Shown here piece after piece: positions 20,610 to 55,533 of a DNA stretch of 64,000 nt. The stretch is taken from contig WPIO01000065.1 of assembly GCA_009760855.2 (NCBI GenBank), forward strand, positions 1,769,001 to 1,833,000, written 5' to 3'. How positions within the stretch are numbered: position 1 is the stretch's first letter; each line of letters starts with the position of its first letter. The notes beneath the pieces were generated by a model that saw nothing but the letters and a program-made list of their open reading frames with translations, was not told the origin of the DNA and did no database searches. The DNA comes from Cristatella mucedo (Eukaryota > Bryozoa > Phylactolaemata > Cristatellidae). The position numbers and the translations under genes are program-made.

Positions 20610-20837
20610 TCATGTATTTTTTCTGTCCTTATGCTTCGCCGACAAGCCGCTACCGAAGGCCACAGTTAAAGAGTTCTTTGGTTTCCTTCTTGCGAGAGGA
20701 CTGGATCTCGCTTTGGACGCGTGCTTCGGGCTCAGGTGGCCCGGAGCGGCAGCTCTGTCGTCACTGCCGAGCAGCCCAAGTGCGGCAGCTCTTGCAAGAA
20801 CGTCTTTTGCTGATTGCTTTGTCGACTCGGCAGCTGC
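20610..20837 (-). CDS. NSUN7: NSUN7-like terminal exon 9
   Basis: Acceptor TTGCTTGTAG then GCAGCTGCC at 20837; TGA stop at 20610-20612. The 228 bp are phase 0. It encodes [20 protein letters not shown] and GLLGSDD, matching the [14 protein letters not shown] segment near the C terminus of NSUN7. It ends in a basic tail, [13 protein letters not shown] then KHKDRKNT. A longer plus-strand frame overlaps it and is a shadow. An AATAAA on this strand lies at 20373-20378, about 230 nt past the stop. Confidence 0.86.
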   Translation of the reverse strand, partial: AAAESTKQSAKDVLARAAALGLLGSDDRAAAPGHLSPKHASKARSSPLARRKPKNSLTVAFGSGLSAKHKDRKNT

Positions 20838-23800
20838 CTACAAGCAATATATCGTAGTACCATGGAAAAATGGCGTGCCACCAAAAGCACAGCTTCTGCG
20901 GCTAAAGCGACCGCAAGCGTTTCGCATGCCATCTAGCTTCGCAGGTGCGCGCCATACGCTACAATATACTGATCTACAAACTTTCTGAAAGATTTTGAGG
21001 AAGATACATTTAAAACAAGAGCCGAGTATATCGATAGGTCTGGCAAATGCTGACAGACCAGGCGCCGCTTGAAGCGAATCGTGGTCAGACAGCATTCAGA
21101 ACGTGTCGTCCGACGGTCAGGTCTCTCAGCTAGCAGAGCTGTCGCATGCGGGTTTCCCTGCGGCGATATGTATTCCCGATGTCTTGTCTCCTACATCCGT
21201 GCAAAGTCTCTCAAGGTGATAATTTAGATCCCCGACATCGGCTTACTAGTACCTCTATGCCGGCGTCATGCAGACGTACTAATCATTTTGCTACCAGTCT
21301 CTTGGCTGATAGAGAAATACTTACCAAAAACCTTGCCCTGACCTATTCCAAGTGTTGCTACTTTGAGTGCAGTTGAAGTGCTGCAGCTTTGGTCGCCTCA
21401 CGCCATTTGATTCTCACAGGAAAATAAATTAGGCGTCTCTTTCTTTTTCTTTGGTTTCAAGTTAATACCTATCCTGGTCACAAGAGCAACGTTTGTTGGA
21501 AATATTGGTCATTTTATTTAGTTCTGAGACATAAGCAATTAGGACATAACACTTATTATTCAGTTACCAGAATTTCTTAAATAGTAATATAACTCTTCTA
21601 TATAGCTCTCAATAGAACCAAATCTCTATCGTGGTGCTTCATAACTCGCTGCGAGCGAACCAGCAACAACCGTGAACAACATTCACGCTTTGGCGTGCTT
21701 GAACAAGCACCCAAGTCTTAGAAAAGCATGCAGAAGCAGACACTGCATGTTAGTAGAACGCCTGCATGTTAGTAGAACGCCTGCATGTTAGTAGAACACC
21801 TGCATGTTAGTAGAACGCCTGCATGTTAGTAATATTTGCTGGATAATTCAGAGGTAATTGAATCGCCGTGAAAGAAAGTTCACTGGGGTGTGGTAAAAAA
21901 AAGCATATAGCTCTTGCCTTTTGTCGTGGAGTTCACAGTTTCGTAAAGCACAAGCATTTACAACTAACTAATTCTGACCGAGCCAACACAGCCTGGAACT
22001 GGAAGGTTTTTAGCTTCCTTCCCTTATACTTCCTTTCTTGTGGTAAAATAAAGAGATGACATGGTGTCTGTCAGCTAGGTAGCTCGAAACTTTCGGATTA
22101 TTGCAACTGAAGGCACAATCTCCACGAGATTTGAAGATAGTTATGGGCATAGTAAATCAACGGGAGCTAGAAGCGTGGGCGGTCCGACGGGAATCCTGAT
22201 ACGAAATTAATACAGATTGGTAGGCCAAAGCAATAGAATGGAAGGACCTAAATGCGAGTCACAGAAGCTTGAAGCAGATACGCTGCTCGATAAGGCAGCC
22301 AATGAATAGTCTGTGAGGATTGGTTTAATGAGGCAGTGAATATATTTGCTGAAGATAAACATGGAGGCATACAATTGCCTAAACAGTAAGCGTCTTATAT
22401 AATGAAAAAACTAGCTGAATAGAGTTCACTAGTCCGAGGCTGTTTATGCATGATACGGCAAGCTGTGGGTCAACCACTTGGTCCAAGGTAACCTTTCGAC
22501 TCCTATTTTATTAATGTGTCTAGGATCTCCAAATAGTATTGCTGGTTTAGTTGTGTAGCGCTGTACGAAGTGGCCACCGCGACGCAGCCCCTCAAATCTT
22601 GGACGACAGAGTGCTAGTTTTCCGGGCAACGCGGCCGGTAAAAACTGACGAACAGAGGAAATAGGAAGCCATCACAGGCGTCTCATGGTCAAAGGCACGT
22701 GCATCATTCTCTATCCTCTCAACTGTGTTGTGTCTAGGAACCTGCAGTGTTGTAATATATGTTGTTTCTAGGAACCCCAAGTAGTACCATTTAGTTTCTA
22801 TTACGTTGTTTGGCGCACTCGATTGTAAACCGATGGGAAATTAAGCAGCCACCCCTTCTCTGCGAGTCACGTGACCGACTCGCGTCCAAAAGCCTGCCTA
22901 ACTGGGACGGTCGTTGAAGGTTACGCAGCGTGCACCCACAATGTAGTTAACGGCGGTACTAGCGAGTGTCCTTTGCTGATGTACGGTATGCGATTTTCTA
23001 TGAGCGGATCACTTCTCTGCAGCTTGAGCATCAGCCACGTTCCAGGCCGACTTGCGAAAGTCGCTCCAGAGAAAGCAGGCGAATGCGTCGCTCCAGAGTT
23101 CGGAAGCCTCGCTCTCGCGCGGCTCACCTGCCGCTTGAGCGCAGCAACGAAGCAGCCACTTCTCGACTCCGAGGGCGCGAGGCGAGCAAATCTGTCTGCA
23201 GCAGCAGCAGACGCTGCCAGCGCAGTGGCTGTCTGCGATCCCTGCTGGAAGATGGCCGCCGATTGAAACGACGGCCTTGCGGCGGCCGATGCGGCTGCCT
23301 GAGATATGCAGTCGATCGCCTTAGATATGCAATCCTCGTTCTCCGCCGTCCGGACCGATCGCGTCATGTATATCACATCGTTAATGTTGGGCACTAAGAA
23401 AGACAAGCACACAGCGAAGATCAGTCCAGAGTGAGCGACGTGAAAATCTTCTGATCTCCGTTTTCTGCGTGGACGCGCAGTTCGTATGCTGTGGAAAGCT
23501 TTTGCCAAGCGTCGAGCAGGACTAGCAGTGTTGTGACCAACGAAGTTCGATCCTGCGAACTACTAGACAGCAATTAATGAGGGCCAGCGAGAGACGAGAG
23601 ACAACGATAATAGAGCGCGTAGGTAACATGGCGAATTAGCAAAGACCTGCACTTATCGCTCCTCGGAGCCAATGAAAAGAAACTGGCGTTGCATTGGTGA
23701 GATAAATAATAATACGCGGGGAGTGGGAAAGATTTCACCTTGACAGAGTAGATGATTTAGCTCAAACTTTGAAAAACCAGCGGACTAGTTGTTAACTTTA

Positions 23801-26800
23801 CATCACAGCGACAACGCTTTCATCTCTGCTGGTTCGCAGCGCTGAAGCGTACTTGTTAAAGCAACCGCCACTCACCCGATAATAGCCATCTCAGCTGCGA
23901 CTGCAGGTCAGCCAGTCTTCTACTGAATTCCTCCAAGGGCGGAGTATAGGCAGTTGAATATTTTAGCAGTTTTATGTCTATAAAGTGATTCACAAATAAA
24001 GTTATACACTGAAAAACAAACAACAAACATCCTATTGAAGAAACGAAACCATTCCGGATTCCAAAATAAGTTAAAACAATAGAATGCATTGGGAAACTAC
24101 TTCCTTTAAAAAACTGACCACTTTTTTTATTTAAATTTTTAATCGTTGCATTGTTAAACCATCCGCAATCATAGAAAATTAATCAGCTCGTTCAGCTGCT
24201 TCACTTGAAGACCGCTGGCGCCCGAAGCTTCTGCTCTACCGGTCGTAGACCGAGGAACTCACACCAATAATTCTTACGCAACGATATCTTATCTGGTTTG
24301 GCTCACCGGGTTAAGGTGCTCGAATTTGATGGCCGTGAGCATGGGCTCAAGCCCTGCATCATACGTGACGAGCCTGGATGTAATTTAGGTTCTCTTAGCG
24401 TGCTATACACATGAATTATATTTTACATATTTTTTCACTCCTGATGCATTTTCTTGCTTTGCTTTAAGAGTCTATGCTAAGTTTAAATTCAAGGAAAATA
24501 CTTAAAGAGTATACGTTAACGTGTAACGTGGCTCACCTTCACTGTCTGTTAAGAGGAACAAGACTGGATTCGCCACACTTGTCTTACTACAGTTGGCGGA
24601 CATCAAAGCTGCTTGAACTTTGGCAAGTCGGGCATCTGAAGGATCCATCTCCGCGATCGCTTCGTCCAAGACTTCAACATCTTGGATAGAGTCAAAGAAT
24701 AACTCAAGCAGGAAAAGGCACAGTGCAAGTCGGATTATCCATTTGTTACGAACGGGATCCATTGTGACCACAGCAGCCTTCCTTACAACAGAGCTAGAGC
24801 CGAGATTTTGAAGTCCAGGGGTTGATTCATGCTCGCTACCGAGACTTAACGCTGATACTTTATGGAGTGCAGCACTCAATTTGTCTTGCTTGATTTGCTA
24901 CGCTTGACATTCAAAATAAATCTCGGTTACTATAGAAAACAGTCTAATATACTTAAGTTTATTCATATGGTGAGGGCATCGGCACGTTATGACAAGCTTA
25001 TTTCTGGAAGTAGTTGCAAGTAAGCAGTTTATGACCACGACTGCAAGCGCTTGTCGTTGCGTTGATAAATAGTTTATTTCCGAGTTGTCTCCTAGAATTA
25101 TTGTGCCTCAAGGTAGCCAAAAGGTAACGATGAACTCCAGAAATCTTTTTTGCATGCGCCATCTTGGTGTTTCTTCTTTTCAACCATTCTCTCTCATCCG
25201 GTGGTGGAAGAAAGAAGCCATAATTCTTTTTGCTTCGGACGCTGCTTTTCGCACGCGGCGACTTTCGCCACTACTCGCCATCGTCTGGTCATCACCTGCT
25301 CCCCAGTTAGCAGTGACACGAAGAGGCCTTGAAAACATTGGATCCTGGATGTCGGCAATTGTACTTCAACTAAAAGACGATATAACCGAATTGTAACGCA
25401 TAGGACACACCACGAGTGTGGCCAGACTAGGAGATTTTGCACTTCTAATTTACAACGCTGTTGTATGAGCGGCACCGTGTGCTCGCAACTTAGGTGATGC
25501 CTTAGACAAATGCCGACATTTTAAAGTTTCATTAAGAAGACTGCTTCCACAGCTAGCCATTACGTTATTTCCCCATCGGAGATTAAGGACTGTCTACCAC
25601 AGTGGCTTGGAAAACATTTAAATAGCTATCCGATACTGTCTAGGATGGATGGTAGCAATTTCATTTGGTTGGGCTACCTACAAAAAGCCACTAGGCCAAT
25701 GCAGCTGGTAATGAATGTGCTTTCAAGGTTAGTTAAAGAAAATGCCAGAGATTCAGCCACGTGTCTTCTTTGTGAAAGAGCTGCGATGACATCCGGTTGA
25801 TCAATGGCTACGGAGGCTTAGGCTATAAGTTCGCCGTAGAAAAGCCTCCTGAGCAATGCCCACTTAGTCTGTGTGGCTTTGTGGGGTTACAGAAGGAGGT
25901 ACAGTGCATTGCAGTCCTTGTATTTCTTGCTCTGCGAAGTAAGCTACGCAGAGCCACCCCAGCCTTTTAGAGTTGCAAGTGGGCAAAACCGTGTTATCTT
26001 CTTTCACCTCGGCGGCATTGTGCGGGTACTCTTTTTTCTGCCTACTCGGGGCTTTAGCGAGGTTACAGTGTTGAACTTAGGCAAGGTATTGACACCTGCA
26101 CGAAGGAGAAAAATATCAACAATTAAATGATCGAGAAAGAAACGGAATGCGGTATAGGTAGGCGGATTTGGCAGAACTGCTATCTAATCTCTGCAGCCGC
26201 TCTCTATCCGCTATTATTGATCCAATGTATTCGGGGTAGCAACGGTGTAGCCTAGAGAAACTAGCAGTGAGACGGGTGTGGATGGACTGTATGAACGGAT
26301 TGACGCACACTCGGTGAGTGCTTGCCATGCAAAGACATCATGATACTTTCACAAAGATGATTCTAGATCAGTAATGAGGATAATCCGTATGCTCCACAGC
26401 AGTCAAGCCGTAAAATAAATTGGTATGTAGAATGGCTTGGTTGGAAGGTGACGTAGGAGCATTATTACTGCCCCACCCGTCTCCCCAGTGGGTGCATGCA
26501 AAGCACCACAGATGTGCATAGCGACCGACAGCTGCTCGGAGTTACACTCGCAGCTGCACTTGTTCGAACTTTGCAGCAGTGCACACGAAAAGAGGCGAAG
26601 GGAATGAAGAAGAGTACATTTTTCTTGACGGTAGCGCAGCTAGCTGCTCAGACTAGTCACAGATCAGCAGTTAACTGAAAGGCCTTGACGCCGTTGCACA
26701 GGAAGTAGCCCCCCCCCCCCCGATCAGCGACCTCCAGGTATCGGCCCGCAACGGCAGCGGCAAAATGAGGTCCCAGAAAAAAGCTGTCCTGGAATATTCG

Positions 26801-29800
26801 CGAGGGAGATCGATAGACAGACAGACAAACAGAGAAGGATGCTGTGTTCGACACACATGCTAGCTGAGTGCCGAACGGCAGAGGCTTGCTTGGACTCCCA
26901 AGTCGCTGCAGAGATGTTTCACACCCACCGACTGTCGCGGACGAGGTCCGACGGGTAACTGAAAGTGAAGGTCATCTGATCAAACTGCCTCATTTTGCTA
27001 AGCAGCAAAAGAACCTTATAGGCTATCCCCATCGTTTGCAGTGGGTAGTATAGAACTGTTTGCCGCACGACTCGAACCCGCGATCGGGGTCGTAACATGC
27101 GAGCTCCTGACCCCTGGGCGGAGACCCAGGGATGGCCGGTCACGACCCCTTACCGGCCACATGCGCCTAGGCCGCTGAGTGGTGCGGGCTCTTTCTCTAC
27201 TCTACACTACCCCTTTTCGCTGTTTCCTAGTCCCATCCTGGTTCGAGCCCTTGCCTGTTGACCCTTCTTTCGAACCTTCTTTTCACCTTTTTATCCCCTT
27301 CTGTTGGAGCGTGTGGAGGTGTGGAATCCCATTCATCGGCGCCAATTCCCGGCAGTGAAGTCTACAGCAGCAAAGCCTTCTGCGACCGGCCGGCTCTGAA
27401 TCAGTCGCGCCAAGCGGCGACGACTCGCGCTGCAAGCACACTAGTTGGCCTGGAGTGGCCCCGCATGTAAAATACACGACGTGCTCACGCCCACGCTCGC
27501 GAATGCCGGTCGGCCTCATGCGGTCCTTCGACGCACAATGCTCAGAGGTACTCACAGCCTCACTGGCTGCCGGCTTGCGGGCATCCATGGCTAGCGAACC
27601 CACCCAGGGCGACGTCCAGATCTTAATTTTTGGCTCGAAAGCGAGGCCTCGGACCGCAGATGCTAGCTCGAAAGACTTTTGGCCAGAAGCTATTGGACAG
27701 TGACCCAGCATATTAGAAGGATACTCGTTGCACCAAGAATCCGCAAACGTTCCTTAACGGCGACGTTTTCCTCGGGTGCTGGCCGACAAGCAGAGAGGCG
27801 CCAGATGCGGCCAGAGTAACCCATCTCCCTCATCATAGCAGCTATATGAGCCGACGTGTTGCCATTGCCGTCATCGATGTGCACGACGTCGAAGTCGGCA
27901 GTCAGCATGTCGCGCATTGCACGAGCGGCCAGACAGCTCGTGTAGTCCTAAAAGACAGAAGGGCCTGTGACGATTACGACAGAGCTGTCTCAAGAGTCAT
28001 GTGAAGGAGGCTCACTTAACTAACTGCGACTCTAGAAGTGCAAGCAGCAGGCGATACAATTGCTCACACAATAGGAAAAGACCCGGTGAATGTAAATAGA
28101 CGATATTTCGTCAAGGTGATCCCAATGGAAATATTTTCTGCACCGATTGGTAATCGGGTACCTATTGGTGTGGCTCTAAGTATTGCATACATTTATCGAC
28201 CGTTAACATTTCTGTGTGGACAGCTTGAATTTATCGACTGACATTGGCGAGTCTTGCTTTCCGCTGTTCAGCGTCAGCATTGTGAACCAGCTAGGTTATG
28301 AAGCTGCTAATTATTAGCGAGTCAGCTGGTTGTCGCTCACAACTCTTACTGGTCACGTGCAGCCCTTTTTTGCTGTGGAATAGGCATCTATACGTTACGA
28401 ACAAGGACTCGTCAATCTAATATCGGTGCAGCAGCTACGACCCGTTAGCCGTCCCTCGAGGTGCAAGCACCGCATGCACTTGTCCTGCGTCTGCAATACC
28501 AGCACCGGCTAGTGGAGCTTTGTTTTTGGCCAAATATTTGAGTTCTGCAGCAGCTAAAGCGATTTCACAATAGTTATCAGTCATCCAAACGTGAATGTCT
28601 TGGGTGGAGATGGTCAGGGAATTACAGTAAGTACACAATCGGATGAGGAGTTGAAGGATATTATAGAGCTGATTGTCATTGCCGTAAAAATGAGAGCCAT
28701 GACTGCACGTCGGTCAGGGAGAGAGTGTAGATAGCGAAGAGAAGGGTTCTAAGACCGAACCCTGATGTACCACGGGTCTTTAAAGGCTCTTTAGATCGCC
28801 GATAGCCATTTGCATTTACACTCTGGCATCTCTCAATGAGGCAGGTCCTAACACAGTTCGCACCGTGCCAGTTCTACCTAGGCGTGTGGCGCGGTTCTCA
28901 AGAAAGACCTGGTGGTCAATAGAGAGGCTCTGTGCGATTCTTTCAGGTATCTACTGAGATAGAGCTAAAGCGAATGGTGTTTGCCTGTCTCCAGCCACCA
29001 AGTAAAGTCCTGGTAATCTGCGTGTCAGGAAAGCCAAGGGTTCAGAAGATACATTTTGACAGGCTTCCTTTTCACCAAATGTGAAGTGACAAGAAGAGGT
29101 TAGGTTCTCTTATTGTGAAGTCTGAAGTTATACTATTATTTTGAGGCCTAGTTCGGTGTTTTCATCACTTTTGACAATGAAGGTGATTAGAAGACAGCTA
29201 CAGTGATAGCTGTAGAGAAAGCATCTGAACATCCTCGGTAGCAATTAATGTTAGAGCCTGAGGAGGTTGCGAAGCCGAACGCTGCCGTCTACCGCAGAAG
29301 GCTATGTACTGTCCATTTTATTCTACCGTTTGACAAAGACCTTCTCAACGAGGAAGACTTGTGTAATGTTAATATTACTAGTAAATCATCTGTATAGCGT
29401 CGAAGAGAGCCAACTCTCTATCGAAGCGCTCTACTGCTCGTTGTAAGAGTGGCAACAAACAATATTTAATGACAAGGAAGATATCCCGCACGAGCAAAAA
29501 ATATAAATATAATTCATTTATATAGCGCCCCAAGAGAACTTAATCTCTATTCAGGCGCTTCACATATGCCTCGGGGCTCGAGCCCACGACCTCAGTCAGA
29601 CCTTGGTCGGGGCGAGCACCTTAACCACTAGACCAAACCTAAGATGCACGAATATGTATGCAATGCTACAAAAGAAGACAATCAGACCGCTGGCTAGTGG
29701 AGCGTATGCGTTTAGTCGATCCGTTTTGAGTTAATCAATGATACGCAAATGACAATGGTTAGGAGACTGATGCCACGCAATCGATGTGTAGACGTTAAAG

Positions 29801-30530: not shown

Positions 30531-33500
30531 CTCTCTTTCTTTCTCTTACTCTCTCTCTCTCCCACCCTCTCTCTCTGTCTCTCTCTCTCTCTTTCTCTAG
30601 CTCAACAACGAAGACGGAAATAAAACGCACAATATCAAGGCCAGACGTGGCACTTGATTCGACACTCACCTGAACCACGAGGTGTCCGTTTTTCACCAAA
30701 GAATGAGCCATTAGTTCTTGCATGCAGTCCGGTGGAAATATGACTGTATCGTCGCAGAAAGCGTCAAAACGGTAAGTTCTTCCGCAAGGGACACCGTCGT
30801 AGTCCGCTTGCCTGTACGAATCCTTTGAAAGCGCTCTGATAACGTCTTCCTTGCTTAAACGCAGTACACAATAATAATAACAATAGTAATAATAATACAT
30901 TTGACAAAGCGCCCTCAGAGAACGCAAGCTCTTTCTAGGCACTTTACATTTGCTGGAAAGGAATATGTGCCTGTTATTGTCTGTGCTTTCTAGCAGTGCC
31001 GGAGCTTGCGTCAAAATCGAGACCAACTTTTGACGAACTCCGCCGTGTTCCAATACCGCGGGTTCACCTGCGTGTATTGATGATGCACGTACCAGTCGCT
31101 AGCAATGCTACAGAGGTCAGGCGTCACCCGTATTCGTCATACGTCTGCTGGCAATCACACCCTTTACGAGAGCCGCGTTTAAGGCTTTGTCCTGTCCGGT
31201 AATGGAAGCTCCACACTCCGTTTGTAACACTGCACTGTACGATGATGCATCGCTTAAGAGACACTTTCCGCAGACCTAGCCGACCGCTGGTGAATTTTAG
31301 GGGGGGGGGGCAGGGGGCTAACGACCACCTTTGATTTAGTGGTTGCCAGAAAATTGGCTTAACGGGGCAAATCGATCTGCCGGGACACGTTCGTACGCAC
31401 AATTCTGGCGCACAATTACGAGTCGGAGGGGGCTACAGCTTTTCAAGAGCTTTCTTGCTAAGCAAGTTAAAACAATGTCATGCCTTTTAATACCAGGTCT
31501 GCTATTTTAAAGACGGCTGATAATTAGACTTGGCCAACTGGCATTATCCGCAGGAGGTCACCTACAAGTATCTTGCCATTCAGACTTTTCAGCCATGCTG
31601 CGGTATCTGCTTGCACTTGCAGCTCTGTGAGGCGGTGGCAATAGCTGAGCAAGCAACATCCACCCCAAAGACTGCAAGAGCCTTCCTTAAGGGCTCACCA
31701 CCATACAAGAATTGTTTGCCTCGTCTCTTTATACCTGCGTACTGTTGCTTTGGTCGGCGCAGGGTCAGTTTCTAGCAACACCGAGTACAGACGAAGGCGC
31801 TTGCCATAAGTCGGACGAACTCACCTTGATTGCAGACTGTTTATCCAAGCATGCACGAGATGAGTGCCCTGCGACGGACTCCACTTAGCTCGTGACGAAT
31901 CGGGCAGTAAGCCATCGATACTTCGCACGTTCGCGTCAATCTTTATCCGAGCTAGTGCTGCGTTCATCTTGCAGGCGACGCTGCGAATGGCTAGATCTAC
32001 GGAAACGACGTCATCCGACGAGAGGTCCCCCTTTCGGCAAGGAAGTGGCTGGAATTTTCTTAGCTGAGAGTCGCAAAGCATTACCATGACCAGAGGCTCT
32101 ACCTCCAGCAGCTGAAACATGCATCGGGAAGCAATCAGGTGGTATCTTGACCAAGTTTCCTTTCTGGGCAAAGGGCTAATTCAAGGCAGCTTCACTCTGA
32201 GGTCCTAGGCGGCGAGCAAGTTTGCGATTGCTGAAGGATCAGTTTGGATTCAGGAGGTCCAGTGCTTCCGCGGCAATCGTACACTCCAACTCGAAAGCCT
32301 GCCCGTTAATCGCAGACTGTAGCATATCTGAATGCCCTACTTACTCCAACCATAATACAACCTAGCCATAGCGTGCATTCTAATCTTTGTAGCTGCCAGA
32401 ACCTGCAGCCGGACACGAGCTGTCGAGATCAAACGGTTTGAGGTGACGCATTCTTCTGCGATAAACAAGCAACGGTCAACATCGGTCATGAGCAGCTTTC
32501 AAGACTCGTATTGGTTTTTTAGGGGGGTCTCTTAAAAGACACTTTAAGCCTCAGTCCTTTCCTTGTTTACTTAAGAAAGGGCTCGTGTGTTTAGGGTGAG
32601 TCTAGGTCGTGGGAGAGACAAGTGCTTCTCCTAAGGACTCAGTGGTAGGCAAGGAATGACGGGCTTATGCTAATGCATACTAGCGCGTAGAAACGGCACT
32701 TATGTGACCAGCTAGCTACGCAGTCTCAGAGAATTCTCGTCCATGCTGTGCTCACTTGTGTAGTAGTTGCTCCTATAGTGAGTGGGCCTAGCTTGAACTT
32801 GTTATAAACTGGCAATTTTTACGGTGTGACTATTTTACTTCTACCTTTATACAGAAAAGAAAACAATACAATTTTGAATGTAAATCCGTCTGTAAACACA
32901 ATGCTTCGGCGTTTCTTAAAATCTGTGTCATTTGTGATATTTATAGAATTGTGGTTCAGCTATAATGAGTGTCATTAAAAATTAATTATCTGAGAAGATT
33001 ATTTACTAGTTTTTATATCTAGCTATGACATGCAATCTCAAAGTCAAAATTGAACAATAAATTGTGCATTGAATCACCATGAAATATTTCTCAATAAGCT
33101 TTTCAGGACTATTTGAAATTAAGTGATTATATAATTACGAAAGCACGTAATTTACCACGCCTGGGTCGATGTGAGGCACCTCTCGAGATATCCTGCCGCG
33201 GGATTAAAAGCTGCAACTGACGCTAACTCATGTATGGTCCATAGTTCGTAGGCTCAAGGTTAACCTCGCATGATTCAAATTCTATTGGGCACTGACAGGT
33301 CGCAAAACGAGTTTAATGATTTCAGCTCCAAAATTAATTTTATTATTTGCTGATAGCGGCTGCGCCCAACATTCAATTTATTAAACATTTATAGTTATAT
33401 TTAATGGCAAGCAATAGTGAAGAGTGGGCTTTCAATCCCCGCATTATGTAATTACGTATTTAAAAGCCTATCTTAGGAGATTATCTCTCAATGAAATGGT

Positions 33501-37900: not shown

Positions 37901-40900
37901 GAACGATTTGGGAAAGCGGCTAGTTTTCTTCAACGCTGCCATAGCCGCCGGAATCTAATCAGCTGTCTGCTACGCCCTCAGCAAATGACGATCTACCACC
38001 AGCTGCAACAATCGGTCTACATTAAAGAAATTGCGAGGACTTGAATCAGCCCGATTCTGATTATACGATAGCTACACACACTAGGTCAAGAGCTATCGAA
38101 TCTCAAGTAAGGCTCCATGACTATGTCGCTGAATAAATCGTGGAGCCATCCAAGCAAACAACAGAGGAAGAGACAGTGACAAGACTTCGATACACCAAGG
38201 TCGTAGCAGTCAGTTACCACCGTGCATGGTAAATAAAGGGTCGTCTTTACTACTGCGTGTCTTATTACGGAAACTGCGAGCAAAAGATCATGCTGCCAGC
38301 GCGTCCAGCGTCCAGCCGTGCCATTTCTTTTGCGGCCGTCCCTAGTAACAATATGATAGCGGAAACTTACGTGCGGATGCTGAACGAAAAGTGCGGTATC
38401 CAAGGCCAGGCGCTCGAGAATGTATTGATCTGCAAATTTAGTAATTAAAAAATAAGCGCCTATCCTCGCGGGGCTTATATAATTAAATGAAGGGTTGACA
38501 GGGAGCAAACTAGATTGACGAAGCAGCAACGATCTCGATAGATCGGTATAACCCAAGTCATCCCGATCCTGCCTTGGCGTGCGCCCAAGAATGCAGTGCC
38601 TTTTTATTTATCACCGTTTGTAGCTCCACAGCCACGAAGATTAAGTGGGTGTCACGCTGGAGAGTTTTTTCTAGCGAACTCCAAGCCTAAGTGGATTACA
38701 GTATGCATCATAAGGTAGCGAAGAGAGTTTATCTCACGGAATAAAGAGAAAGTGAGAAGCGTTTCTTAGTCGGAAGGGCAGTCGAGGAAGTGAGTAGCAT
38801 GGATGTAGCAGCAAAGGTGGATTGGAAAAGATGGGCAGTTCTGTCCGCAGCTGAAGAGCTGATATCGCTGCGCAAGAAATATGAAAGTGACTTCCATAGT
38901 CTAGGATCTACGGAGAGCAAAAAACTTTCGTCGCAAACGGCGTTTAAGCGCAGGGCAGCTGTTGCGTGCTTTCGAATTATTTTCTTGTATTTTTCTTTGC
39001 CTTTATTCGCTCAAACCGTGATTTTCGTCTTCGCTGCAATTCGACTAGCGCTGGACTGAAATGCGCGACAAGAGGTAGAGATGGAGTTACACCAGGGGGA
39101 GGCGCCGTGGAGTCACCGAGAGCTCTCACAGCTCTCTACTGCTCTTATAGCGAAACTCTACTACTCTGGCAACGAGACGTAAGAGATAAGACCGCGGCTT
39201 CCAGTCTTCCGAGATACAAATCCGCCGATTCTCCATTCGGATAGGAGCTTCTTTTTTGAGTGTCGAGTCAGACGAAGGTCCTGACGTAGGTGAAAGGTGA
39301 TAACCAGGCTTTTGGAGTACGGAAGCTGAAGGCGCGATCTCTTCAAAGGACAGCTAAATGTCTCGAGTCCCAAGAATTTATGGGAATAATGAAAAATATT
39401 CACAACTCCGGCAAATGAACCAATCCTCTAATGATGCGCACGGTATTGCGCTCTGACAATAATACAAAAGCAAGTGTCAGTCATTCTTAAGCCTACATGC
39501 TAAAGCAACAAGAATACGCTCGGAGCCACTAGTTAGTATGACTCTGGCAAGTAAAATGCTCTGAATCGCGTGCGGAAAAGTAAGCGCAGCATGAAGGAAT
39601 GCAAGAGATAAATTCTCTGCAGAAAACGACGTGAAGTCTGATTAAGAAGTATGCAAGACAGTTAGGCCAGAGCAAGAGAATTAAGAAACCTAAATGTCAG
39701 TGATAAAACCTATGCGATCGATGCGAGCCCTCTGCAGGAGAGTGAGAAGAAGTATAAAATGGTAGTCTCAACGTTAACCACAGTCAAGCCTTACTGTAGA
39801 GCTTTTTATCAAATGTACAAGTCTTACTGCGTGGGCAAGAGACAATTTATTAATGAGTTACGGAAGTCTAGACGAGCTTAAAAAATTGCGTGGACCGGCT
39901 TGGCTTAAATGTCCTCGTTAAAGTTGCTCGACTTTTGCAGTAATTCCTACCGTAAAGTAGGGAGACTTGATAGAGGAGCTAATGTGGTCATCTAGTGAAA
40001 GATAATTTTGGAAAAGGACGCTTGAACTCCGTGCACAGGTGACAGGACACACGCTGGGTGAGCCCATCTAGATGGTTGGGTTTTCCATTACATGACTAGC
40101 GCTAGGTTTTCCCATAACTGGTTAGTTGGTTATATCCTTGGATTTGAGAAAGCTCTATGTCATCCAAGTGCGATTTTGATAAATGAATTGAATTTATATG
40201 TATATATAATTCATTTGTATAGCGCCCTAAGAGAACCTAATCTCTATTCAGGCACTTCCTATGTGCCACGGGTCTCGAGCCCACGACCTCGGCCAGACCT
40301 TGGTCGGGGCGAGCACCTTAACCACTGGGTCAAACCAACTCGGTGAATTTCAGCAGTCTCACTAGCAAGTGGGTTAACATGTGACTGCTGCACATTGACG
40401 TCAATGCTCTGAATTCGTTCGCTGAGATAAAGACTTAAATCATTGCAGTGCAGTGCCCATGATGCCCAGAGAGTTGACAGGTGCTCAAAACGGTCTTGGT
40501 GATTAATAGTATCACACTCTGTGGAAAGAACCAGCAAGAAAACAGAGAAACTCAACGTAAGTATGAATCTCTGAGAGGGTCGTTGTAGACTTGATACAAT
40601 GCTGACTCTGTGTGGTGGCATAGTAGAAAGCTAAAACATCTGACTGAAACTTGCTTGCTAGGTTTGATGTTGTCATGTAAGAGTTTAGCTGATCCACCAC
40701 AACTCGTTCCAGTGTCTATGAAAGGATGGGCATCAAGGAATCTAGAAGGAAGTTTCTTAAGTTCCTCTTATTCTTTGAGTGGACTTCTGAATGAGTTGTC
40801 TGATACTAGTCTCTTTGAAGAATTCAAGAACGATACTTGATTCTAAAAGGATGTTAGTTACACAAATTGAGGCATGCAAAAAAGAGAACAGTAAGCTTGG

Positions 40901-43765
40901 GGTCTAGAGAGATAGCTAACTTCTTAAATTAGAAAATTAACTAAAAGATACAGTCAGCACTACATGTCGTTAAGGCGTAAAATAAGGTAGCTGACGAAAA
41001 GGAAGTTAAAGAGTCTGGTGGCGATTTGTCTTTCGATATATCTCAGATCTTACCTCTCTTGTGGAGAGAGTAGGTTAGAAAAAAGATCTGCTAGATCGCC
41101 ATGGGGATCTCTAGGTATGGTGGTGAGAAATCTCGAGCAACAACAAAAACCACATTGTGAGTAGTATGAGAACTCGTGACATCCTAATAAGCCGTTATGT
41201 TTCTTCCCGTGAGTAAGATTAAAAGTAAAAATCTACGAATCTTCGAAATTCCATGTACGAGATAGGAATGACTATATTTTTATAACTTTTTTTTGAGATC
41301 TCACAATTGTTAGGCCTTCGGACCCCGTAGATGCCTTTGGTGAAGCTTTGCATTTCCGCGTTCATATCGTGCACAATGCAATGCTAAAAGGAGTAATAAT
41401 ATTAATAACACGTGTGATAGAGCGTCCTCAGAACTCTATCTCTTTCTAGGAACTCTACGTTTGCTGCCAATGAAGCATGATCGAATGGTTAGTGTTAGCT
41501 GCTCATAGACAATAAGTATAACACTGTTAGGGGTGACATGCACAAAGTCAGCATGCAAATATGGTTAGTGGCAGCATGCATAGTGTCAGCACGCACAAGC
41601 AAATAGAGGACAAATCACATGAACCTACTAAATGCTGTGATTAATGGATGCATTTTGGTTTCTTTTAAATGCAGTCAAGTCAGGGGATGTCGTGACGCAA
41701 GTCGGAAGTGAGCCCCAGGCTTCTGGAGCATACGAACTAAAGGCACGGTCTCCAAATGATTTGAGGTTCGTACGAGGTATAGGTAAGCAGTTAGTTTCCG
41801 AAAAGCGGATGGTACGATTCTTATCCTGGTGGGAGAGTAGATTTGATAGGTAGGCTGGAGCCAAAGAATGGAGAAACCTAAAAGTGAGTGACAGAACCTT
41901 GAAGTCAATGCGTTGCTTGACTGGGAGCCAGTGCAGGTCGACTAGAAGTGCTGTGATGTGGCAACTGCGACGCTCACGGCAGACAAGCCTAGCTACAAGC
42001 GCCTGATTGAACAAGCCGGAATACCAGTGAGTTACAGAATTCAAGACGGAATGTTAAAAATTCATGGACCATTTAGATAGAGTATCCCTGACTAAAAAAA
42101 GCCCATAATTTTAGCCGTGTTATGTAGCTGAAAGGAGGCAGACTTGATTGTAGAGCTGATGTGGTCGTCTAACGAAAAGTCACTTTGGAACATGACACCT
42201 AGATTTCGTGCAGATTCAACAGGAGATAAGCTTACAGAGCCGATTATGAGCGTTAGCCTTTCCAATTTCTGAGTTACACTTGGTTTGCATATAACTAATA
42301 AGTTGGTTGTATCATCATTCAATTTAAGAAAATTTGCTGCCATCAATGTGTGGAAATCAGCAATACATGCAGCACGAGAGTTGAGAGAGTTCAAGGTGCT
42401 CGAAGGCTGCGAGGGATCAAAGCCAAGGTACAAAAGAGTGTCATCTGCATAGAAGTGAAAGCCTAGATTGTGCTTGGCAATCACATCAGCAAGAGGGAGA
42501 GTATAAACCGTGAAAAGAACAGGACCTAGCACGGAGCCCTGAGTACCCCATAATTTAGAGGTTCTTCGGATGCTCTTTATCTATTAACATCCTGGAGCTT
42601 TGGAGTCTCTCACTGAGATTGGACCTGAACCATTGCAATGCAGTGCCAGTGATGCTCAGGCGAGATGAGAGGCGCTCAAGAAGGAGTTGGTGATCGATTG
42701 TATCAAAAGCTGCCGAAAGATGGAGCAAAACAAGCTGAGATGCACTAACTAAGGCTGCATTCCTAAGTAGGTCGTTATACACCCGAAGCAATGCTGACTC
42801 TGTGGAGTGATTAGTTCTAAAATCAGTCCGAAAATTACTGGTAAGGTTGAAGTTTCAATATATAAGTTCAGCTGGTCTGCCACGACTCGCCATAAAGGAG
42901 TCGGATGACCAAATCTCTGCGTGGGCAGGTAAGAGGTCGGCTATCGATTTGAGGGTTACGGGCTGAAGCCGCTACCTTCAATAAAGAGGCGAAATGTCAA
43001 CAGCCTTAATTGCTTTTATACGGCCGTCACAGTGGGACGTACTTTGGCATTTCACTAAGCTGTCTGGGTGTTCCAGCAGATGATAAAGATGGGGAATGCT
43101 CGCTCTTTGTATCTTTCTCTTTCGTGCACGTAAAGCTTTCGTGAGTGCTCGCCAGTGCCAGCGCTAGTTGTAAAATGAAGGAATCACGTGGACCGCTGGG
43201 CACAGCTGCTACAGCAAGCTTCCAATCCAGTGAGCCCGCTACGTGGGTGACGGTGGTGGAGCTTGAGACTCGTTTGCTGCAATCCCACCGCTCCTCGCCT
43301 AGTAGTGTCGAGCACAGTCGTAAAAATATGTCAAAAAAAGTAGGCTAGCCTACTCAGACATATTCCTTTCTATCGTGGCAGAGGCGCTTTAGCTGTGGGC
43401 GTGCTGCTTGCCGTTAGCCGACTAGAATTGCCTGCTATATATAAAGCTCATTCCCGCGAAAGGGATTGCAGCGAAATTACAGGTCCTTACTGTGTGCCCA
43501 AGATCCAAAGAGACTTACATTTCAGCGTAGCGTAGACGAGCTCATGCGTCAGCCTTCTCTCTTCGACGCTCGAAAAGCTCAAGGTCCTCGGAACTTGAGA
43601 CTGATCCGCTGCTAATTGTCTGTAGCGCTGTCCGAGAATCAGTCGGTATGCTTCGTCATCTGACCTCGGTGAGTGACGCAGGCTTTCGTATATATCGGCA
43701 GCCTTTTCGAATATGGCGTGAGTGTAAGGGCTTGGTAGCTTCTCTGAAAGCAGGTACCTCGACAT
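20610..43765 (-). CDS. NSUN7: NSUN7-like RNA methyltransferase-family gene, nine exons, 579 aa
   Basis: Nine minus-strand exons join in phase: 43519-43765, 38371-38429, 31825-32111, 30670-30853, 27725-27947, 24537-24680, 23876-23977, 23128-23393 and 20610-20837. Landmarks follow vertebrate NSUN7 in order: [53 protein letters not shown] (about residues 254-260), the SAM-site region [14 protein letters not shown] (282-295), [15 protein letters not shown] (351-365), [23 protein letters not shown] (421-435), [20 protein letters not shown] and [13 protein letters not shown] near the C terminus. Known: NSUN proteins transfer methyl from SAM to cytosine-5 of RNA; NSUN7 is linked to sperm motility. 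Odd: the motif VI Cys (TCS) reads TRS (Arg427), so the cytosine nucleophile is missing. Cys364 of motif IV is kept. Vertebrate NSUN7 is somewhat longer (about 718 aa in human). Confidence 0.88.
21744..21831. repeat. 19-bp tandem repeat, about 4.6 copies
   Basis: TGCATGTTAGTAGAACGCC repeats at 21744, 21763, 21782, 21801 and 21820 (the last partial) with one substitution. In the NSUN7 last intron. Confidence 0.9.
23128..23393 (-). CDS. NSUN7: NSUN7-like exon 8 (motif VI, Cys replaced by Arg)
   Basis: Acceptor GTCTTTCTTAG then TGCCCAAC at 23393; donor AAGCGGCAG|GTGAGC at 23127. The 266 bp run phase 1 to phase 0. It encodes [20 protein letters not shown], an Ala-rich stretch, then [20 protein letters not shown]. 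The codon at 23359-23361 reads CGA (Arg427), where active family members have the motif VI Cys of TCS. Plus-strand frames over this GC-rich exon are shadows. Confidence 0.86.
23876..23977 (-). CDS. NSUN7: NSUN7-like exon 7
   Basis: Acceptor ATCACTTTATAG then ACATAAAAC at 23977; donor TTATCGG|GTGAGT at 23875. The 102 bp are phase 1 at both ends. It encodes [20 protein letters not shown] and [13 protein letters not shown]. The LA..Q..QL pattern ahead of motif VI fits the helix that precedes the catalytic strand in the family. Confidence 0.78.
24290..24425 (+). mobile_element. SINE1 copy, diverged
   Basis: TGGTTTGGCTCACCGGGTTA head, GGGCTCAAGCCC B-box-like, TTAGGTTCTCTTAGCGTGCT tail. It lies 110 bp downstream (low-coordinate side) of NSUN7 exon 6. 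Confidence 0.7.
24537..24680 (-). CDS. NSUN7: NSUN7-like exon 6 (motif IV Cys)
   Basis: Acceptor GACTCTATCCAAG then ATGTTGAAG at 24680; donor CAGTGAAG|GTGAGC at 24536. The 144 bp are phase 1 at both ends. It encodes [20 protein letters not shown], then [21 protein letters not shown] is the motif IV position (PCS in the family), and its Cys is kept as Cys364. Confidence 0.83.
25325..25905 (+). mobile_element. LINE family A relic (3' half)
   Basis: The translated pieces [33 protein letters not shown] and [18 protein letters not shown] follow the 7.8-kb copy with in-frame stops. It ends in the same 3' UTR (GTGGCTTTGTGGGGTTAC). It lies in an NSUN7 intron. Confidence 0.7.
27055..27140 (-). repeat. 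tRNA-like / SINE2-like head
   Basis: The reverse complement contains GGGTCTCCGCCCAGGGGTCA, GGAGCTCGCATG and the B-box-like GGGTTCGAGTCGTG, resembling the SINE2 head. The 7-bp stem CCCTGGG/CCCAGGG lies at 27112-27131. It does not fold as a complete tRNA by eye. Confidence 0.35.
27725..27947 (-). CDS. NSUN7: NSUN7-like exon 5 (SAM-binding region)
   Basis: Acceptor CTGTCTTTTAG then GACTACACG at 27947; donor GCAACGA|GTATCC at 27724. The 223 bp run phase 0 to phase 1. It encodes [11 protein letters not shown], then [20 protein letters not shown] and [21 protein letters not shown] stands where active NSUN enzymes carry the Gly-rich SAM loop (A-P-G-x-K-T type), so the loop is divergent, as it also is in vertebrate NSUN7. 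The donor is weaker than the others. It was chosen because the joined GATNVEVL matches the family across the junction. Confidence 0.82.
28440..28960 (-). mobile_element. LINE relic (RT region, family A-like)
   Basis: The minus-strand frames carry [20 protein letters not shown] (decayed PQGSVLGPLLF) and then [20 protein letters not shown] (decayed [16 protein letters not shown]). The exon-like open stretch 28438-28595 belongs to this relic, not to NSUN7. Confidence 0.65.
29500..29639 (-). mobile_element. SINE1 copy, full length
   Basis: Reverse complement: GGTTTGGTCTAGTGGTTAAG, GGGCTCGAGCCCCGAGGCAT, GAAGCGCCTGAATAGAGATT, GCGCTATATAAATGAATTAT. In an NSUN7 intron. Confidence 0.84.
30022..30129. 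repeat. 23-bp tandem repeat, diverged
   Basis: GGCAGTGCCTCGAGGCATTG plus CTT repeats at 30022, 30045, 30068 and, less well, to 30129. Open reading frames over it are a by-product. Confidence 0.75.
30438..30600. repeat. (CT)n microsatellite, interrupted
   Basis: Long CT run with CTTT and CCCACC interruptions, starting about 70 bp inside the intron after NSUN7 exon 4. Confidence 0.92.
30670..30853 (-). CDS. NSUN7: NSUN7-like exon 4
   Basis: Acceptor TGCGTTTAAG then CAAGGAAG at 30853; donor GGTTCAG|GTGAGT at 30669. The 184 bp run phase 2 to phase 0. It encodes [20 protein letters not shown], then [20 protein letters not shown] and ends KNGHLVVQ, the strand that leads into the methyltransferase fold. 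A long GA/CT microsatellite begins about 70 bp into the following intron. Confidence 0.86.
30868..30968 (-). mobile_element. LINE family B tail
   Basis: Starts with (AAT)n at 30872, followed by AAAGCGCCCTCAGAGAACGC and CTTTACATTTGCTGG. It inserted about 20 bp upstream of the acceptor of NSUN7 exon 4, so it forms part of that splice-site neighbourhood. Confidence 0.78.
31825..32111 (-). CDS. NSUN7: NSUN7-like exon 3
   Basis: Acceptor GCATGTTTCAG then CTGCTGGAGG at 32111; donor CAATCAAG|GTGAGT at 31824. The 287 bp run phase 0 to phase 2. It encodes [20 protein letters not shown], then [20 protein letters not shown] and HAWINSLQS, all aligning in order with NSUN7. Plus-strand frames over this exon are shadows. 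Confidence 0.87.
32200..34505. other. NSUN7 intron 2, AT-rich part
   Basis: Nothing recognised; 32.8-33.5 kb is strongly AT-rich. Confidence 0.5.
34510..34640 (-). mobile_element. SINE1 copy, head truncated
   Basis: Reverse complement: GAGGTGCTCGCCCTGACCAA, GGGCTCGAGCCCC, GAGGCGCCTGAATAGAGATC, GCGCTATATAAATGAATT. Confidence 0.8.
34831..34914. repeat. (CA)n microsatellite on a SINE1 tail
   Basis: CA units with CG and TG interruptions, continuing into TATATAT and a minus-strand SINE1. Confidence 0.94.
34915..35069 (-). mobile_element. SINE1 copy with microsatellite tail
   Basis: Reverse complement: CCGAGCTGGTTTGGTCCAGG, GGGCTCAAGCCCCGAGGCAT, GAAGTGCTTGAATTGAGATC, then TATATAT and the CA array at 34831-34914. 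Confidence 0.8.
35173..35207. repeat. Perfect 14-bp inverted repeat
   Basis: CTGCCCACGTGGAA, loop TGCCAAG, TTCCACGTGGGCAG. In NSUN7 intron 2. Confidence 0.9.
36375..36770 (+). mobile_element. Gypsy-type LTR retrotransposon RT relic
   Basis: The plus strand shows [17 protein letters not shown], a frameshift near 36.44 kb, then [44 protein letters not shown] and [20 protein letters not shown]. This is the order of the Gypsy RT entry region (L..GII..S.SPW, R.CVDYR.LN, YPLP). No LTRs, protease or integrase were seen. Confidence 0.65.
36868..37011 (+). mobile_element. LINE family B tail
   Basis: GTTTTTTAAGCATGATTTTA, then ATATAAAGCGCCTAGAAAGA and (ATT)n to 37011. It follows the Gypsy relic. Confidence 0.8.
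37077..37216 (+). mobile_element. SINE1 (tRNA-derived, LINE B-type tail)
   Basis: A clean reference copy. A-box-like TGGCCCAGTGG at 37089-37099, B-box-like GGGCTCGAGCC at 37139-37149, then GTGAAGTGCCTGAATAAAGA and TTAAGTTCTCTTAGGGTGCT. The tail copies the family B LINE hairpin. Head about 75 bp tRNA-like, total about 140 bp. Confidence 0.82.
37680..37825 (+). mobile_element. SINE1 copy
   Basis: CTTGGCCCAGTGGTTAAGG, GGCTCGAGCCCC, CAAGCGCCTGGATAGAGATT, GCGCTATACAAATGAATG, then a T-rich run. Nearly full length. Confidence 0.82.
38371..38429 (-). CDS. NSUN7: NSUN7-like exon 2 (59-bp small exon)
   Basis: Acceptor CTAAATTTGCAG then ATCAATAC at 38429; donor CCGCAC|GTAAGT at 38370. Phase 1 to phase 0. 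With the split Tyr codon it reads [20 protein letters not shown], which fills exactly the gap between the exon 1 and exon 3 homology blocks. It lies about 5.1 kb from exon 1 and 6.3 kb from exon 3. Confidence 0.8.
38640..38935 (-). mobile_element. LINE family A 3'-end fragment
   Basis: The minus strand encodes [20 protein letters not shown] followed by [13 protein letters not shown], matching the C terminus and 3' UTR of the 7.8-kb copy. It lies about 200 bp upstream (in gene sense) of the small NSUN7 exon 2. Confidence 0.75.
39950..40720 (-). mobile_element. LINE family B relic split by SINE1
   Basis: 39950-40185 aligns by eye with 42120-42320 of the longer copy. 40346-40720 encodes [20 protein letters not shown] and [11 protein letters not shown] (the [14 protein letters not shown] and LSERLQS region). 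The block between these LINE parts is replaced by SINE1 (40186-40345). Confidence 0.65.
40186..40345 (-). mobile_element. SINE1 copy inside a LINE B relic
   Basis: Reverse complement: CCGAGTTGGTTTGACCCAGT, GGGCTCGAGACCC, GAAGTGCCTGAATAGAGATT, GCGCTATACAAATGAATT. Flanked on both sides by family B LINE in the same orientation. Confidence 0.82.
41391..42895 (-). mobile_element. LINE family B, longest copy (RT to 3' tail)
   Basis: Minus-strand frames in order: [20 protein letters not shown], then [20 protein letters not shown] and [54 protein letters not shown]. The 3' UTR, the tail at 41410-41470 and (AAT)n follow. Frameshifts near 42.04 and 42.54 kb break the ORF. CR1/L2-type; the endonuclease is missing. 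Confidence 0.88.
43519..43765 (-). CDS. NSUN7: NSUN7-like exon 1 (probable start codon)
   Basis: The exon body runs from acceptor ATACTTTTTGCAG at 43768 to donor CTGAAAT|GTAAGT at 43518. An ATG lies two bases inside it (43763-43765), giving [20 protein letters not shown] and then [10 protein letters not shown]; it ends [18 protein letters not shown]. The helix around [10 protein letters not shown] matches the family's SYELAF..LK segment. I prefer this ATG, with a non-coding or short coding exon upstream. The alternative coding exon at 46898-47090 would also fit the phase. Confidence 0.78.
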
Positions 43766-43899
43766 CGCTGCAAAAAGTATGCGCGGCTTGAGTCGCCACG
43801 CTACTGATCTCTCAGCAATCATACCATCAACCTGGCTGGAAGTTTCTAAAAATTTTAGAAGTTACATGCGCACAATCGACCATCCAAAATTTCAACTTG

Positions 43900-53910: not shown

Positions 53911-54294
53911 TCACCCTGTAGATGCAACTTGTCTGGGAACTTCTCTTAGATTCACTACAATAACGGATATGTTATCTGTAGATCCCCTACTATAAGCTTC
54001 AGCCACCAGACTCTTGGCTCCGAAATCGAGCTCTCCAAGATGTTCGCTTATATAAGCTACAGCATCGTCATTGCTAAACACGTCCCACAGGCCATCAGAT
54101 GCCAGAATAATGAAAAGCGGCCGATGCTCGGCCAAGTTGAACGCTCGAACATCCGGCTGAGCTGACACAATATCATTACGCTTGAGTTCGGCGTCGCCTA
54201 GGGCCCGCGAAGTGGCAAGAATGCCGTTGACGCGCCAAACTCCAAAGAACATGACAAAGCCGCCGGCATTTTCGATTCTTTCTTTTTCGGAAGG
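53911..54294 (-). CDS. PPM1L: PPM1L-like terminal exon
   Basis: Acceptor TCTACTTTTAG then CCTTCCG at 54294; stop TGA at 53911-53913. 384 bp. It encodes ERIENAGGFV, WRVNGILATSRALGD, ILASDGLWDVFSNDDAVAYI and STDNISVIVVNL, the C-terminal half of the PP2C fold with its metal-binding acidic residues present. Confidence 0.92.
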   Translation of the reverse strand, partial: PSEKERIENAGGFVMFFGVWRVNGILATSRALGDAELKRNDIVSAQPDVRAFNLAEHRPLFIILASDGLWDVFSNDDAVAYISEHLGELDFGAKSLVAEAYSRGSTDNISVIVVNLREVPRQVASTG

Positions 54295-55477
54295 CTAAAA
54301 GTAGATAGCAGCAGAATACTGTGTAGGATCTAGCACAACTGTCACTTGACCACTGGCTGGCTCCAAGCAGACGAGCGCATATATTTTTACGCTGCTGCTT
54401 CCTTGGCAACTGGATTTGTAATGCACCAGCACAAGGAAGCTGAAAGGTTACGAAAAAATTGTGCCTTGCGGCTAAGAAAGAATTAATTAAGGTTTCTACA
54501 GAATTAGAATGCATTTAGAATTGCAATTAGAATGCAAAAAGGTTTTTCAGCATCGGCCAGGCTTGACCTTAGGCAACTGGTCGGTTACTACATGCAGACG
54601 CGAGCAGAGGCAAAAACAGGACAGAAAAAATGGCGCCCAAAGCCGAGCAGCACTAAGATGGAACCGCGAAGTGTAGGCGCTCTAAAATGCAACATGCTAA
54701 GTTAATGGGGTATCCATGCCACAACAATTGAAACCAGCATGTAGCTCCGCCCACTAGGCAGGTACGGGCTGGCACGAAAGAGTATGCAAGAGAAGAGCAT
54801 CTTACACTGTCAGGCTTGTGATCGTATGACAGTGGAATTGCTTCTTTATTGTGATTACACATGACGGCCCGTGAGTCGCCCACGTTGGCTACGTAGAGAT
54901 GACCCTCGAGATGCAGGGCCACCAGGGCCGTGGTGCCTGCCAGCGAGAGAAGACGCCCTGCACTGCCACGTCACAACAGAGTGTCGATCGCTATCGACCT
55001 GTATCGCCAGCCAATCCTAAGAACGATCGCCCGCAATCTAGCAAATGCAAACCAACTTCAAAATCTCTCCGACATGACGAGACTCTCGCGATATGACTAG
55101 GGCCATGACTGTGATTTCGCTTCGTGGGCATTGTGGCGCTCGAAGTGTAGATTCTCGAGCTGGCGCTCGAGAGCCAAGCGTGGCAGTCGTCTGGGTGGGC
55201 ACTGTTGTACAAGCTACGCGGGCTCTGCTCGGACAGACGAGGCGACTTCTGGCACTGTCGAGCTGCTCCTGGACCCACAACGCAATGCACGCACAGCGAC
55301 CAAGATACCTGACTGGTCGTATGCTGACCGCAGGATGCTGAGCAGTTGCCTGTCGACGGCGACAATTTCATCCTTGAGCAGAGCAGAAACAGTCTCGGCG
55401 TCGAAAGTCACACTGTCATTCACCAGCCGAGTTAACAGACGCTTGAACACGGTTTTCTCGGCATACTCGGCAGAAAA
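53911..55477 (-). CDS. PPM1L: PPM1L-like PP2C Ser/Thr phosphatase, C-terminal three exons
   Basis: Exons 55309-55477, 54806-54936 and 53911-54294 join in phase (phase 1, then phase 0) and end at TGA 53911-53913, giving 227 residues. Seen motifs in order: FSAEYAEKTVFKRLL, EIVAVDRQLL, YDQSGTTALVAL, LYVANVGDSRAV, SYDHKP, ERIENAGGFV, WRVNGILATSRALGD, ILASDGLWDVFSNDDAV and GSTDNISVIVV. These are PP2C motifs, including the metal-binding Asp of SDGLWD and the DN near the C terminus. Known: PPM1L is a Mg/Mn-dependent phosphatase at the ER that acts on stress-kinase pathways. The N-terminal exons with the DGHGG motif are not seen up to 64 kb. Another PP2C subfamily member cannot be excluded. Confidence 0.9.
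54806..54936 (-). CDS. PPM1L: PPM1L-like exon (VANVGDSR motif)
   Basis: Acceptor TCGCTGGCAG then GCACCACG at 54936; donor GACAGT|GTAAGA at 54805. The 131 bp run phase 1 to phase 0. It encodes TTALVALHLEGHLYVANVGD then SRAV and SYDHKPDS, a classic PP2C block. Confidence 0.9.
55309..55477 (-). CDS. PPM1L: PPM1L-like exon (after DGHGG)
   Basis: Acceptor GTTGACAG then TTTTCTGCC at 55477; donor CAGTCAG|GTATCT at 55308. The 169 bp run phase 0 to phase 1. It encodes FSAEYAEKTVFKRLLTRLVN, then EIVAVDRQLLSILRSAYDQS. It is followed by a 372-bp GC-rich intron. The large CA microsatellite lies just upstream at 55.54-55.62 kb. Confidence 0.87.
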
Positions 55478-55533
55478 CTGTCAACCGTAAATACACAGTG
55501 GACTAAGCCCAGCATGCAAGACAAGGGCATTAT

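Follow-up and report, generated by a model that had tools for sequence, protein, structure and literature searches.

The gene described here raises the question of whether an animal protein of the NSUN7 type, in which arginine stands where NSUN enzymes carry their attacking cysteine, still methylates cytosine or is maintained for some other role. In the account of the reaction given in PMC6409601, the cysteine of motif VI attacks C6 of cytosine and the cysteine of motif IV helps to free the product; threonine precedes the catalytic cysteine in all seven human NSUN proteins. Published opinion on NSUN7 itself is divided. As summarised in PMC12785897, full loss of NSUN7 in the mouse harms the sperm tail, while animals with a presumably inactive variant are fertile; binding of RNA by the protein has been demonstrated, and a scaffold function independent of catalysis is held to be likely. 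Yet the introduction of the same paper states that NSUN7 catalyses m5C, and NSUN7-dependent m5C is described in papers on eRNA and, for mRNA and circRNA, in PMC12564306.

Among the literature matches listed, no title or abstract opening concerns a Cys-to-Arg change in NSUN7. Mammalian (mouse) NSUN7 is reportedly called catalytically inactive in the title of a 2025 paper, and a re-arranged catalytic site in NSUN7 is likewise said to figure in a 2025 title. Since mammalian NSUN7 is already titled inactive, the idea of a “pseudo-methyltransferase” is known for this family; the new element is that the nucleophile itself is missing and that a retained pair of paralogues shares an arginine in its place.

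The first member of this pair (copy A) lies in the window, by which we mean the whole 64,000-nucleotide stretch of Cristatella mucedo DNA that was analysed; the second (copy B) lies on contig C343 of the same genome. Modelled from its splice sites, copy A is an NSUN7-like gene on the minus strand at 43822-20610, with ten exons, 591 amino acids, an open frame throughout, nine GT-AG introns and agreement of all exon phases. The start codon of this model is assumed, exon 7 is weak, and a short human sequence guided the choice of exon 2. The exons are as follows:

43519..43822, minus strand: exon 1, MIAERSVAW...ATLK, with the assumed start codon and the donor AAAT/GTAAGT.
38371..38429, minus strand: exon 2, with the acceptor TTTGCAG and the donor GTAAGT.
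31825..32111, minus strand: exon 3, ending in AWINSLQ, with the splice sites AG/GTGAGT and a counterpart exon in copy B.
30670..30853, minus strand: exon 4, ending in GHLVVQ, with the splice sites AG/GTGAGT and most of the NSUN5_fdxn-like match.
27725..27947, minus strand: exon 5, with the motif I loop, the acceptor TTTTAG and the donor ACGA/GTATCC.
24537..24680, minus strand: exon 6, the remnant of motif IV, with Cys383 kept and the catalytic Asp replaced by Ser.
24205..24230, minus strand: exon 7, small and uncertain, fitting in phase, with the weak donor CAA/GTGAAG.
23876..23930, minus strand: exon 8, ending at TATCGG/GTGAGT, its donor in phase with exon 9.
23128..23393, minus strand: exon 9, motif VI MTRS (Arg439) and the tail strand, with the acceptor TTTCTTAG/TG and the donor GGCAG/GTGAGC.
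20610..20837, minus strand: exon 10, with the acceptor TTGTAG, phase 0 and the stop TGA.

For exon 2, open stretches between AG and GT were ranked by their score against a human sequence of 20 amino acids that is taken to be approximately right. The accepted form is third by score (32.5); the two forms ahead of it (36.5 and 33.0) share its acceptor and have weaker donors, and it was preferred because of its GTAAGT donor. The donor of exon 5 was initially placed at TTCTTG/GTGCAA and was changed after comparison with copy B, because ACGA/GTATCC yields LGATNVEVL, which resembles LDVTNVQLF of copy B. Exons 7 and 8 correspond to a single, longer, fused exon in copy B.

The original prediction had described exon 9 at 23393-23128 with the codon CGA at 23361-23359 and a frame open through all exons; the splice sites and phases of this exon proved sound, its position is as described, and the frame stays open over the ten-exon model. 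That prediction had nine exons where the present model has ten, so that the residues numbered there as Arg427 and Cys364 are here Arg439 and Cys383; exon 9 is identical in the two.

Some features of the surroundings may be recorded in passing. The window's introns and genes would suit an animal genome. Intron 9 holds a 19-base tandem repeat (window 21743-21831, 4.7 copies, 97% matches), and intron 1 holds two non-LTR reverse transcriptase-like pieces on the minus strand, at 42095-42580 (PF00078 at 25.7 bits, below the cut-off) and 41631-42053 (no PF00078 match). A PP2C-type protein phosphatase in two exons, which we take to resemble PPM1L, occupies 53914-54970 on the minus strand (PF00481, E 4.9e-30 and 1.2e-13); a further open stretch, at 55217-55480, has the look of a 5' portion of the same gene and has no Pfam match. 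Searches of the window for tRNAs and Rfam families gave nothing.

Copy B came to light when the organism's own genome (572 Mb in 688 contigs) was searched with exon 9. Among the best candidates scored there were eight matches, namely the window, the place on C343 (copy B exon 9 at C343:2546137-2546400, E 7.6e-8, 33%) and six poor ones that start at E 0.055; with exon 5, the window and copy B had E below 1 and one further match stood at E 1.22, again among the best candidates scored. In these searches of the own genome with exons 9 and 5, no third clear NSUN7 copy was found among the candidates scored. Exons 3 to 10 of copy B were found, with phases equal to those of copy A where exons correspond; its 5' exons were sought around the C343 place and not found. 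Exon 4 of copy B has the donor CAG/GCGAGT and hence a GC-AG intron, against CAG/GTGAGT in the window copy, and a long CT-rich simple repeat (L007, G000:C343, about 2546000) follows directly after its exon 9. Prokaryote and viral contig collections, which hold no animals, returned 28 and 26 pattern stretches, of which none was confirmed as a relative.

The position of the arginine was read from a profile of the two copies, for which human NSUN5 (2b9e, E 1.3e-19) was the sole convincing hit among the four solved sequences listed, the other three having E 0.16 or worse. In this alignment vvymtrsvraienedvv stands opposite LVYSTCSLCQEENEDVV, and the core of the motif VI strand, ymtrsvraiened, opposite YSTCSLCQEENED. 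The motif VI stretch is separate and weak when taken alone (14.1 bits, i-Evalue 0.18), and it lies in the correct order behind the first stretch (57.7 bits). Judged from this alignment, the arginine of MTRS occupies the place of the motif VI cysteine: CGA (Arg439) in exon 9 of copy A sits where human NSUN5 has the cysteine of TCS. The earlier assignment of MTRS to the nucleophile strand thus gains an independent footing. Copy B has VVYMTRSS in motif VI, with the arginine codon CGC as against CGA in copy A, and reads VVYMTRSSNAIENEQVVSKALD, TAGCSASAVANP and VIHVDCGNGAATAHIS; arginine therefore replaces the cysteine after threonine in both NSUN7 copies (2/2). The original prediction had named a second intact NSUN7 copy, with this one unexpressed, as something that would speak against it; such a copy exists, as far as its exons were found, yet it has arginine too.

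Since CGA is two positions apart from TGT and TGC, a single base error is no explanation for the arginine. An alternative exon that could supply TCS was also looked for in the gene, without success: over window 20000-44500, read in all three minus frames, TC[ST] followed by a close EN gave no match, nor did the strand pattern ending in TC[ST], while TR[ST] followed by EN gave one match, which is the exon 9 motif. In the 60 kb around copy B there is one match to TC[ST] followed by EN, interrupted by a stop, and one to the TC[ST] strand pattern, in another frame and beside a stop; both are read as chance.

The arginine is one of several departures from an active NSUN site. In the 2b9e alignment, motif IV of both copies pairs with LLDPSCSGSG of NSUN5 and the motif I loop of both with ACAAPGNKTSHLA. 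The Asp that NSUN5 has in motif IV is Ser in copy A and Thr in copy B, the Asp of motif I is His in the NSUN7 copies, and the Lys of motif I is Thr in copy A and Ala in copy B. The motif IV cysteine is present in both (SANCS in copy A, TAGCS in copy B), and the motif I loop reads D-x-GNG with the Lys lost. A retained motif IV cysteine and a divergent SAM loop had been noted in the original prediction, and they are found in exons 6 (24680-24537) and 5, respectively.

Generic family models give mostly weak scores. PF01189 (cut-off 27) stays below its threshold in both, at 16.3 bits in copy A (residues 307-513) and 18.8 bits in copy B; PF21148, the NSUN5_fdxn-like model (cut-off 24.5), is exceeded by copy B with 25.4 bits and fallen short of by copy A with 18.6 bits (residues 211-278); NCBIfam nop2p matches both, far under its cut-off. 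No NSUN7-specific model of Pfam or NCBIfam matched either copy. Nor did Pfam show PF01189 or NSUN when the minus strand over 22.5-31.5 kb and 31-41 kb, which covers exons 2 to 9, was translated unspliced in three frames; single exons are too diverged.

Identity with NSUN7 is suggested by comparison with a human NSUN7 segment whose letters we take to be approximately right, which provides a lead: both copies are colinear with it, with 121/423 (copy A) and 123/417 (copy B) residues identical, 29% each, and BLAST against this one subject gives E 4e-46 and 1e-46. A motif IV cysteine without the Asp and a divergent SAM loop appear to be common to both copies and this human segment, and the C-terminal tail KDVLARAAA to copy A and the segment. 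Both align with NSUN5 (2b9e) across the fdxn-like and methyltransferase parts, but NSUN5 carries APGNKT, DPSCSG and TCS and the copies do not; on these motifs the copies were set apart from NSUN5, of which the genome contains a separate, canonical representative (NSUN5-like, with DPSCSGSG and STCSV).

The other NSUN genes of the same genome serve as a control. A PF01189 search found five places, which we read as four genes and name provisionally by their motifs. They are a NOP2/NSUN1-like gene (L001; LLDAPCSGTG, YSTCSI), an NSUN6-like gene (L002; LLDAPCSALG, YSTCTL), an NSUN2-like gene (L003 and L005, 3 kb apart and taken as one; ADVPCSGDG, YSTCSF) and the NSUN5-like gene (L004; LVDPSCSGSG, YSTCSV). 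TC in motif VI together with Asp in motif IV thus occurs in 4/4 of the other NSUN genes read and in 0/2 of the NSUN7 copies.

The two copies have been apart for a long time and have remained under constraint. They are identical at 153/392 aligned residues (39%), with pS 0.773 (saturated), pN 0.440 and pN/pS 0.57; as silent sites are saturated, this ratio shows constraint on the protein and is no true dN/dS. In 200 random pairings the mean pN/pS was 1.006 and the minimum 0.90, which in these coding sequences argues against decay for a pair at 0.57. Because the arginine is common to both copies, it was probably fixed before the duplication and then kept in both, its age being read from the paralogue pair only. 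A duplication later than the split from vertebrates would fit the similarity values, as the copies are 39% identical to each other and 29% each to the human NSUN7 segment.

We think it likely that this animal has an NSUN7 without NSUN-type cytosine-5 methylation, that the protein of the window is one of two old, constrained arginine paralogues, and that it works as an RNA-binding or scaffold protein. Published dissent notwithstanding, both copies are best read as pseudo-methyltransferases that would bind RNA or serve as scaffolds. From the known mechanism, with the attacking cysteine replaced by arginine and the base-holding Asp gone, the NSUN reaction presumably cannot run. Constraint in two copies implies that the protein still has some function; it would most likely keep the fold and bind RNA by the former active-site face, in an RNA-binding or scaffold role such as has been proposed for mammalian NSUN7 in sperm, and the arginine probably contributes to holding either RNA or the domain core where the covalent bond was once formed. 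Against this reading weigh the PF01189 and nop2p scores below their cut-offs, the papers that describe methylation by NSUN7, and the retained motif IV cysteine, which a pure loss of chemistry would not demand.

The NSUN7 family probably lost parts of its active site stepwise, with loss of the nucleophile in the lineage studied here. The chemistry may have failed earlier, with the cysteine then lost under relaxed constraint before the fixation of arginine, because the motif IV Asp and the Asp and Lys of motif I are gone in both copies and because human NSUN7 apparently also has neither this Asp of motif IV nor the common PGGKT loop and keeps TCS. This bears on the original prediction of a selected loss of cytosine-methylation chemistry: that the motif VI cysteine is essential for the reaction holds, but selection on the loss of the cysteine itself does not follow, other residues being gone as well. 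A bolder version, in which the arginine was gained under selection, turning NSUN7 from a covalent methylase into a non-covalent RNA “clamp” that then gave rise to two specialised copies, perhaps of male germ cells, is speculative and rather unlikely to be right.

As to the alternatives, TRS may be what NSUN7 ordinarily has across many invertebrates, so that this lineage would not stand out; we give this somewhat less than an even chance, and it is compatible with the pseudo-methyltransferase reading. An arginine common to two copies that are only 39% identical must be old, which favours a wide distribution; human NSUN7, where threonine precedes the catalytic cysteine (PMC6409601, in its account of the human proteins), differs from the Thr-Arg of both copies, so that TRS is not universal in animals.

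It is rather improbable that the protein is still a methyltransferase with “re-arranged” chemistry, in which Cys383 of motif IV would take over the nucleophilic attack, as its counterpart does in DNMT2 and DNA methyltransferases, and Arg439 would hold the base or a phosphate. The motif IV cysteine is the same in both copies, the D-x-GNG loop is similar to that of class I SAM enzymes in general, and the re-arranged NSUN7 catalytic site reportedly named in a 2025 title points the same way; the Asp that should precede the cysteine is nevertheless gone (Ser/Thr), as is the Lys of motif I, and mouse NSUN7 is said to be catalytically inactive by title. DNMT-type enzymes do use the motif IV cysteine, and the likeness to DNMT2/TRDMT1 would exist only if this chemistry were true, but by description their motif arrangement differs (PMC6409601).

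A decaying pseudogene, an assembly error or a wrong choice of exons, to which the weak Pfam scores, the uncertain exon 7 and the exon 2 chosen with a short human sequence could be thought to point, is very improbable in view of the in-phase fit of all ten exons, the presence on a different contig of a paralogue that has YMTRS spelt by another arginine codon and matching phases at corresponding exons, constrained amino acids, an arginine codon two changes from cysteine and the lack of a TCS exon in the gene, in agreement with the original prediction, which had also judged decay unlikely.

In the papers cited here, whether NSUN7 methylates or has a non-chemical role is argued from mammals. If both copies are indeed pseudo-methyltransferases, an animal with two constrained, nucleophile-free NSUN7 proteins would represent a “natural experiment” for the non-chemical view, and the arginine suggests a testable RNA-holding residue. 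For the family, this would mean that annotation alone is not enough to credit NSUN7 with m5C.
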